Shown here: piece by piece, positions 47,331-49,689 of the stretch
How the letters are laid out: the number at the start of each line of letters is the position of its first letter
How positions within the stretch are numbered: position 1 is the first letter of the stretch
Translations under genes and position numbers: made by a program
Notes under the pieces: model-generated
What the model saw: the letters and a program-made list of their open reading frames with translations, nothing else
Told to the model about the DNA's origin: nothing
Database searches by the model: none
Assembly (NCBI GenBank): GCA_947561715.1
Contig: OX387203.1
Coordinates: forward strand, 434,001-498,000
Reading direction: 5' to 3'
Source: Ascidia mentula
Lineage: Eukaryota > Chordata > Ascidiacea > Phlebobranchia > Ascidiidae
Length of the DNA: 64,000 bases

Positions 47331-49689
47331 ATGCCGGTAAGTTTTTCGTTGTAGACCTATTTAAAGTTGCACAGTTGTTGATACTTTCTAAACATTTGTG
47401 TGCTGTTTAGTAATTATGAGGATGATTTCTTTTGAATGTAGTTCCGAAATGGAAAAGAGGAAGAACAGTCCAGAAAATTATTTGTGGGTGGTCTATCGTT
47501 GGACACCACAGATGAATCAATGACTGATTATTTTCAAAAATATGGAACCATAACTGATTGTGTTGTAATAAAGGATCCAAGCAAAGGTCATTCTAAGGGC
47601 TTTGGGTTTGTGACATTTGCAACAGAAGAAGAGGTGAAGGATATATATTTAAAACAAAAAACTTTTCTGTAATTATAAACTTCCATTTTAGGCTGATGCT
47701 TGCATGTCGGAACGACCACACACAATTGATGGCAAACAAGTTGATGCCAAACGTGCTGTGTCAAGAGAGGTGTGTTAATTTGCACTAAACAGTATCTTAT
47801 TAAATATTTTTGCTGGATTGGAAAGTTTATAATTTATGTTTTTTTTAGGGGTGATGTTGATTGCGTGAACCAGTGAACATTTTTCATAAATTATAAAATA
47901 CATTGTAGTGTTAAATGACAGTAAATTTAGCTGTAAAGTGTGTGGGGGGATATAGACTTTCCAATGTGGAACTTTTGTAAAACCATATCATCTCTTCAGG
48001 AATCTTCAAAACCTGGTGCACATGTCCAAGTGAAAAGAGTCTTCGTTGGTGGAATTAAAGAACACTGCACGGAAGATATGCTAAAAGGTGTGGAAGCATA
48101 CATTGTGACACACACTTAACCTCCATTAAAACATGCCAATTTTAATTTATTTTCAGCATACTTTGAGGAGCATGGCACAATAGAAAGTGTGGAACTTCCT
48201 TTGAGTCGTGACACACAAAAGCCAAGAGGATTTGGTTTCATCACCTTCAGTGATTTTGATACCGTTGACAAACTTGTTGGTGAGAAACAAGTGGTTTTAC
48301 TAGCTCCAAAATCCTGGTTTTGTAGCGTGGTATATAGTCCATATTAAAAATTATGGCAGTGACATCTTATTGTGGTTTCAGTGATGACTTTTTACCGCCC
48401 CAGTCTGAATATTTGTGTTGATTGGTCAAACCTGAGAAACTAAACAAATGTTCACTAAAATTTTGTTTCTCATATAATATATTCATTGTGACCAAGATTG
48501 ACTTGTACTCGTAGCCAAAAGACATCACACCATTGAGGGGATGAGGTGTGAAGTTAAAAAAGCTTTATCAAAGGTGGAAATGGAAAAAGCAAAGCAACAA
48601 TGTAAGCCAATCTTGTGAGTTTTGTTAAATTTTAAAATCTTCTTACATTTACATTTGTACAGTGGAGGAAAGACAGCAATCAAGACATTATGGAGGTGGA
48701 GGTAAACGTCTGTTAACAATCGATTAACCACAACCTAAACAACATTTGTTGGTTTCTTGGCTTGTTTGTACTCTTTAGACAACAACTGATAAAAAAAGTT
48801 TTGTTTTAAAGGTCGTAGTAGAGGCGGCGGCGGCGGTGGACGTGGCCGAGGGGGAAGTCGTGGTGGTTATAATCAAGGAGGTGGTGGCGGCGGTGGTTAC
48901 TATGATGATGGTGGCTTTGGCAACTACCATGGTTATGGAAATAACCAAGGTCTGTACAAACTGTGTAACTTAGAATAGTCTAATCTTTTCTAGGAGATAA
49001 TCTTTAACAAAATGTTTTGTTTGTTCCGTTGATCTTAGTTAAGGTTTAATGTTTTGATTTGTTTCAGGCTATGATGATTATGGGGACAACAGTGGATATG
49101 GTGGTAAGTCTTGCAGTAGTTTAAGCAGTTTGTGGTTGTTATCCTGTTACATGATGATTTTTTACCGCCCCAGTCTGAAACTAATGTTGACGGTCTTTGC
49201 TGATACCAGGATATATCAAGTTAAATCTTCACCAACGTGTTTAGTAAAAAGATGCCTAAACCATTGTGTGTGTTCAGGATACAGCCAAGGATATGACCAA
49301 GGTGGATACAATGAATATGATGATGGCTATGGAGGTGGTTATGGTAGCAATGCATCCAACTACGGACCAATGAAGGGTCAATATGGACAGAGATCGTCAG
49401 GGCCATATGGAGGTGACAAATAGTTTTAACTTGTGTTCATACTGCTACAACTGCAATGCTCTATGCTTAATATATATCTCTTGGCAGATTATAAAGTGCT
49501 AAAAATTAATTTAAATGAGCACCAAAAGTTACCAAACAGAATGAGGAGGTCAATACTTTGTATTCCATATTTTTAGGTGGTTATGGATCCGGAGGAGGCG
49601 GCGGCGGTGGTGGTGGTAACTATAACAGCGGTTATGGGGGATATGGTGGTTACGGTGGGGGAAGTTACAACCAGAACCAGAGGTACTGA
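47331..49689 (+). CDS. hnRNP A/B-type RNA-binding protein (two RRMs, Gly-rich tail)
   Basis: Eleven exons: 47331-47336, 47442-47633, 47692-47769, 48000-48087, 48157-48279, 48515-48601, 48663-48701, 48812-48949, 49068-49103, 49278-49412, 49577-49689; 344 residues. RRM1 has RNP2 LFVGGL and RNP1 [11 protein letters not shown]2 has RNP2 VFVGGI and RNP1 RGFGFITF. The C-terminal half is Gly/Tyr/Arg-rich with RGG boxes, and contains [11 protein letters not shown]...RSSGPYGG, close to the M9 transportin signal of hnRNP A1/A2. Such proteins bind nascent transcripts and shuttle between nucleus and cytoplasm. Exon 1 codes only Met-Pro. If the last intron is retained, the protein ends GGDK at 49424-49426, a probable alternative terminus. 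Introns 5 and 9 carry C/D snoRNAs; intron 3 carries a MITE. It could be hnRNP A/B, D-like or A2/B1; I give no symbol. Confidence 0.94.
47813..47969. mobile_element. Diverged hAT-like MITE copy in hnRNP intron 3
   Basis: A 157-bp element with ends CTGGATTGGAAAGTTTATA and TATAGACTTTCCAATGTGG, inverted at 15 of 19 positions and matching the terminal repeats of the elements at 1917 and 8210. Flanks TATTTTTG and AACTTTTG are a decayed 8-bp duplication. The interior is unlike the other copies (no CCGCGCAA words), so only the ends are shared. Confidence 0.6.
48375..48440 (+). ncRNA. C/D-box snoRNA in hnRNP intron 5
   Basis: Terminal stem GTTTC (48375-48379) / GAAAC (48436-48440), C box GTGATGA (48381-48387), D' box CTGA (48405-48408), C'-like GTGTTGA (48415-48421), D box CTGA (48432-48435). 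The 13 nt ending one base into the D' box, TACCGCCCCAGTC, are the reverse complement of GACUGGGGCGGUA, a conserved sequence in large-subunit rRNA domain V (from memory). By the plus-five rule it would direct 2'-O-methylation of the second G of the GGGG run. About 75 nt remain before the 3' splice site, typical for intronic C/D snoRNAs. Confidence 0.85.
49140..49213 (+). ncRNA. C/D-box snoRNA in hnRNP intron 9, paralog of the intron 5 one
   Basis: A 7-bp terminal stem TATCCTG (49140-49146) / CAGGATA (49207-49213), C box ATGATGA (49151-49157), D' box CTGA (49175-49178), C'-like ATGTTGA (49184-49190), D box CTGA (49200-49203). It shares the D'-side guide TTTTTACCGCCCCAGT with the snoRNA at 48375-48440, while the D-side guide (CGGTCTTTG) and stem differ. 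About 64 nt remain before the acceptor. Confidence 0.87.

Follow-up and report, generated by a model that had tools for sequence, protein, structure and literature searches.

A SNORD31 gene and a SNORD31-like paralogue in two introns of an hnRNP A1-like gene of the ascidian Ascidia mentula

The window analyzed here, a stretch of 64,000 nucleotides (nt) of the Ascidia mentula genome, contains an hnRNP A1-like gene whose coding region (47331..49689, + strand) is divided into 11 coding exons with 344 codons and a stop. Spliced translation yields 1,035 coding bases ending in TGA and an uninterrupted protein of 344 residues, with two RNA recognition motifs (Pfam RRM_1 matched twice) and a glycine-rich tail. 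The first 191 residues match a solved structure of hnRNP A1 in the PDB (E value of 8.4e-71), and among named proteins the closest is Phallusia mammillata hnRNP A1, with 84% identity over 82% of the protein. Ciona and Clavelina are also among the first twelve relatives, and between them stand whale and fish sequences with lower identities. All 10 introns of the gene have GT...AG limits. Intron 5 (48280..48514, + strand, GT...AG, 235 nt) and intron 9 (49104..49277, + strand, GT...AG, 174 nt) each hold one snoRNA copy, and the spliced gene model agrees with the intron limits and numbering in an earlier note on this DNA. A scan of the host introns for a C box with at most 1 mismatch, a CTGA 45 to 110 nt downstream, and a terminal stem found the combination in 2 of the 10, exactly introns 5 and 9, and no further snoRNAs in the remaining 8. 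Just upstream of the host start codon, at 47282-47300, GCGCCATCTTGG is followed by the pyrimidine run TTCTTTC, an arrangement that presumably resembles the YY1-plus-TOP promoters seen in ribosomal protein genes and in genes that host snoRNAs.

The snoRNA in intron 5 (copy 1) occupies 48374..48441 on the + strand, as do all of its elements: the C box GTGATGA (48381..48387, identical to the consensus at 7 of 7 positions), the D' guide TACCGCCCCAGT (48393..48404), an exact D' box CTGA (48405..48408), the C' box GTGTTGA (48415..48421, 6 of 7 positions of RTGATGA), the D-side guide region GATTGGTCAAAC (48420..48431), which overlaps the end of the C' box, and the D box CTGA (48432..48435), located 79 nt upstream of the 3' splice site. 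The snoRNA in intron 9 (copy 2), also on the + strand, occupies 49144..49208 and repeats this order, with the C box ATGATGA (49151..49157, 7/7), a D' guide identical to that of copy 1 (49163..49174), an exact D' box CTGA (49175..49178), the C' box ATGTTGA (49184..49190, 6/7 to RTGATGA), the D-side guide region TGACGGTCTTTG (49188..49199), again overlapping the end of the C' box, and the D box CTGA (49200..49203), 74 nt before the 3' splice site. When G-U pairs are allowed, the terminal stem of copy 1 comprises 7 pairs, and that of copy 2 spans 10 positions with 9 pairs. The features that define the box C/D class, namely, a C box RUGAUGA (7/7), a D box CUGA (4/4), a terminal stem, and internal D' and C' boxes, are thus present in both copies, and the box and stem scan bears out the complete C, D', C', D layout that the earlier note had read in the two introns. 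Folding energies gave no support, with neither RNA folding better than its shuffles (z scores of -0.22 and 0.82).

A few mammalian C/D snoRNAs depend on a position 40 to 50 nt before the branchpoint, whereas most expressed intronic snoRNAs in humans are found at greater distances from it (PMC10234308). If the branchpoints of introns 5 and 9 lie some 25 to 30 nt from the 3' splice site, the spacings of 79 and 74 nt would fit the shorter distance, so that the spacing observed here is compatible with the class and not diagnostic of it.

In an Rfam search of the whole window, copy 1 matched SNORD31 (RF00089) with 42.7 bits, over the gathering score of 40. Copy 2 matched the same model end to end (positions 1 to 69) with 34.1 bits, under the cut-off, and it is accordingly filed as a SNORD31-like paralogue rather than as a member of the Rfam family. 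Box layout, terminal stem, and Rfam, with copy 2 under the cut-off, together with a compatible 3' splice-site spacing, support the proposal that these are two box C/D snoRNA genes. At an E value of up to 5, Rfam listed 14 matches over 47000-50600, with 2 lower-scoring overlapping matches of one clan left out. Two of those listed lie away from the snoRNA copies, a snoR126 match at 48543-48642 that scores under the family's cut-off (E value of 0.4) and a match to a viral pseudoknot model at 48267-48291 (E value of 0.71), and both were taken as chance; a weak match to 6A at 48419-48460 (E value of 2.8) overlaps copy 1 and extends past it. In the 195.8-Mb genome, the RF00089 search, in which 61 of 32,186 first-look candidates were scored, listed three matches, of which the two convincing ones are copies 1 and 2. 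The third (contig C72, 20.9 bits, E value of 3.41) was not recovered at an E value of up to 0.05 and was rejected as chance. Because the model at a lax E value of 10 also gave sub-cut-off matches in 13 of 14 prokaryotic control genomes, only the two strong matches were counted. Neither the RF00089 profile nor an exact 16-mer search of the genome found a third snoRNA copy. A plain DNA search with copy 1 matched only itself and missed copy 2; it is therefore blind to that degree of divergence, and further diverged copies could escape it. Parts of the genome sequence also read N.

The likeness between the two introns is confined to a short segment. The window contains two exact occurrences of TTTTTACCGCCCCAGTCTGA, one at 48389-48408 and the other at 49159-49178, and the expected count is 0.00 (100 shuffles, up to 3 mismatches). 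The repeat that the earlier note had described as a 22-nt core is thus real, with a length of 20 letters as printed, or 21 exact letters with the next A. As a family, the repeat extends over 28 nt (48382-48409 and 49152-49179), beginning at base 2 of the C box and ending one base after the D' box, with 27 of 28 positions identical. Outside it, the two copies align poorly, and their intron flanks show no more similarity than shuffled sequences do: the local score is 20.5 upstream (null mean of 23.6) and 34.0 downstream (null of 31.0, null maximum of 39.5). The exact 16-mer TACCGCCCCAGTCTGA has two sites in the 195.8-Mb genome and no third. Three matches of the 16-mer in viral contigs were dropped, as by eye they have no C/D surroundings.

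In both copies, the D' guide pairs without mismatch with ACUGGGGCGGUA over 12 nt of large-subunit (LSU) rRNA, as read in one of the genome's partial LSU copies. Shuffling the same 15 letters gave a match of this quality in 0 of 300 cases in one run and in 1 of 300 in another. The complementarity had been put at 13 nt by the earlier note; 13 nt do pair, of which 12 are guide and the 13th is the first base of the D' box. By the D+5 rule, the target is the rRNA nucleotide opposite guide base 5, counted upstream from D', and the base in that place is the second G of a GGGG run, which is the second G of ACUGGGGCGG. The guided site is therefore predicted to be the P-loop G, that is, Gm2251 of Escherichia coli and Gm2619 of yeast. 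This is the G that had been proposed from the letters of the window, and the D+5 site agrees with the site given for U31/snR67 (PMC7600485, PMC11121408). The bacterial Gm2251 is a P-loop nucleotide adjacent to those that form base pairs with the CC at the end of the P-site tRNA, and its equivalents are yeast Gm2619 and mammalian Gm4196, with U31/snR67 as the guide (PMC7600485). snR67 is likewise assigned to G2619 (PMC11121408), and elsewhere U31 and snR67 are listed for the same site under the numbers Gm4166 and Gm2616 (PMC3511168).

The target was read at locus L021, which scores 431.9 bits to the eukaryotic LSU model (positions 2398-2996), and thus in partial LSU copies on contig C1 that break off into other sequence rather than in an intact rDNA unit; in five rDNA stretches, the 28S parts read N. 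Since the P-loop is highly conserved, intact rDNA units are expected to show the same target. Partial LSU rRNA copies are numerous in this genome, for example at L021 5743-6281, L022 3650-4188, L017 3044-3375, and C70 16.90-17.88 Mb, and in L021 the 28S sequence gives way abruptly to unrelated sequence. For a 438-base piece of 28S, there are at least 41 genome matches, at least 30 of them on C70 and at least 27 at C70 16.90-17.88 Mb, with 77 to 81% identity, and the 15-nt P-loop sequence has 25 exact genome sites, 19 of them on C70. Either repeats derived from rRNA or rDNA interrupted by insertions may account for these partial copies.

The boxes, the terminal stems, the identical D' guide, the 12-nt LSU match, and the position within introns are all present in the DNA. 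We conclude with high confidence that introns 5 and 9 of the hnRNP A1-like gene each contain a box C/D gene with the SNORD31 (U31/snR67) guide, whose RNA is likely released from the intron and is predicted to guide 2'-O-methylation of the P-loop G of 28S rRNA by fibrillarin. Splicing and debranching of introns 5 and 9 would release the snoRNAs, the core proteins of the class, namely, fibrillarin, NOP56, NOP58, and SNU13, would bind the C/D and C'/D' motifs and protect products of about 65 to 70 nt, and the C'/D' motif would methylate the P-loop G, a residue of the loop to which the CCA end of P-site tRNA binds. The presence of two copies may provide dosage or backup. Duplication inside the gene is the probable origin of the pair, followed by divergence that would have fallen mostly outside the C box, the D' guide, and the D' box. 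It is improbable, in our judgment, that copy 1 works alone and that copy 2 is a decaying or unexpressed duplicate, as its 34.1 bits, below the Rfam cut-off, and its many sequence differences from copy 1 after the D' box might suggest. Against this, copy 2 retains a C box without mismatch, CTGA at both D' and D, a C' box with 6 of 7 positions, the identical D' guide, a longer terminal stem, and a similar splice-site spacing, and a decaying copy would be unlikely to keep the core at 27 of 28 positions next to intron flanks that are no more alike than shuffles. That the repeat reflects chance similarity or is a mobile-element fragment, and no snoRNA at all, is close to impossible: only the fact of a two-copy repeat speaks for it, whereas the genome holds no third exact copy, shuffles give an expectation of zero, and the C/D anatomy is complete, and the match of copy 1 over the Rfam cut-off refutes it in practice.

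The D-side guides leave more room for another reading, in which both copies guide modification of the P-loop G and the diverged D-side guides give each a different second RNA target. The difference between these guides had been pointed out in the earlier note and is confirmed (GATTGGTCAAAC versus TGACGGTCTTTG). Um2724 is the second site of snR67. In yeast without snR34, snR52, and snR67, Um2724 is lost as well as Gm2619 (PMC11121408), which is also in favor of a second target. However, a scan of 4,093 rDNA letters, which include spacers and cover part of 28S, found no second rRNA target above chance for either D-side guide, the best scores being reached by 99 of 300 shuffles for copy 1 and 278 of 300 for copy 2, and we regard different second targets as rather unlikely. 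The D-side guide of copy 1 has its best partner in GTTTGACTGG, a sequence that begins five nt upstream of the main target, with which it overlaps, and the pairing consists of GUUUGAC with 7 Watson-Crick pairs followed by 3 G-U pairs. Near the target (at most 40 nt on either side, 92 letters), the copy 1 score was reached by 165 of 20,000 shuffles and by 8 of 434 natural 12-mers that precede CTGA in the window, 3 of the 8 being the snoRNAs' own guides, and by 5 of 430 when these guides were left out. The corresponding values for copy 2 were 1,654 of 20,000 shuffles, 23 of 434 natural 12-mers, and 19 of the 430 others. The region was picked after the match had been seen, two guides were tested, and the extra pairing of copy 1 is not visible by eye in the Rfam SNORD31 consensus, so that a second pairing beside the main target is suggestive and stays a lead. 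In yeast snR13, extra pairing beside the guide duplex, which sometimes overlaps it, raises methylation, and extra pairing by a U18 region in an artificial construct was without a role (PMC5389607). The two copies might even form a specialized pair, in which the copy 1 D-side region would serve as an accessory guide, opening the target region and boosting methylation, and copy 2 would do without it, so that their strengths would differ; we consider this speculative and improbable. The pair lends itself to testing whether paralogous guides that share one main target differ in accessory pairing.

The favored reading, two SNORD31-guide snoRNA genes in one hnRNP A1-like gene, places the locus within a known eukaryote-wide family (SNORD31/U31/snR67), and the snoRNA itself is thus not new. 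The pair shares with SNORD31/U31 (RF00089, clan CL00053) the D' guide, the box layout, and the predicted rRNA G, with copy 1 over the cut-off. Human SNORD31 resides in SNHG1 with seven other snoRNAs (PMC7154078), whereas the host here is a protein-coding hnRNP gene with two copies, the second under the cut-off. Of these SNHG1 companions, SNORD22 and SNORD25 to SNORD30, the search covered SNORD29 and SNORD30. SNORD30 had no genome match at an E value of up to 1, a weak absence with 65 of 33,851 candidates scored. SNORD29 had one sub-cut-off match on contig C72 (36.9 bits, cut-off of 48, 60 of 59,555 candidates scored). This likely SNORD29 relative, at L061 1501-1572 (C72:7430361-7430432), shows C, D', and D boxes in the alignment and is the only Rfam match at an E value of up to 0.05 in its 3-kb locus. 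The Caenorhabditis snoRNA ceN63 (RF01646) is matched by copy 1 with 46.2 bits, and TTACCGCCCCAG and TGATTGGT are common to copy 1 and the ceN63 consensus; however, copy 1 falls below the cut-off of 65 bits for this family, and the stretch after the guide is unlike. Yeast snR67 (RF01177) and plant snoR35 (RF01281), of clan CL00053, have the same modified position as that predicted for the pair (PMC3511168, PMC11121408).

The U31/snR67 clan appears in a table of ancestral eukaryotic C/D snoRNA targets, and snoRNAs are described as still moving among broadly expressed host genes (PMC3511168). Among tunicates, family 31 is listed with those lost by Didemnum vexillum relative to a clade with two Ciona species (PMC5006418), and the family is thus already implied for the Ciona clade. 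The words "intron" and "host gene" are absent from the main text of that paper, which therefore reports no SNORD31 host there, and SNORD31 is not among the snoRNAs named for D. vexillum in the available text of PMC8704543. In the accessible portions of the open-licence literature, we found no report of an hnRNP A/B gene as a host of SNORD31, and the combination of an hnRNP host with an in-gene duplication of SNORD31 may be unreported. In humans, duplicate members of a C/D family often share a single host gene. The SNORD31 pair in the hnRNP gene is real, was read correctly in the earlier note, and is ordinary, its host and its duplication being of a common kind. E. coli without the Gm2251 mark shows almost no defect (PMC7600485), so the stake is modest.

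Elsewhere in the window, the - strand carries a threonine- and serine-rich mucin-like ORF at 40114-41598 with no Pfam match, and an ORF adjoining it has a possible trefoil domain (E value of 0.00063, 20 bits, cut-off of 21). In addition, ORFs at 19196-19834 (- strand), 57651-59033 (- strand), and 60045-60440 (+ strand) match TNFAIP8, ankyrin repeats, and a mitochondrial morphogenesis regulator family, the last of which we take to be TMEM11-type.
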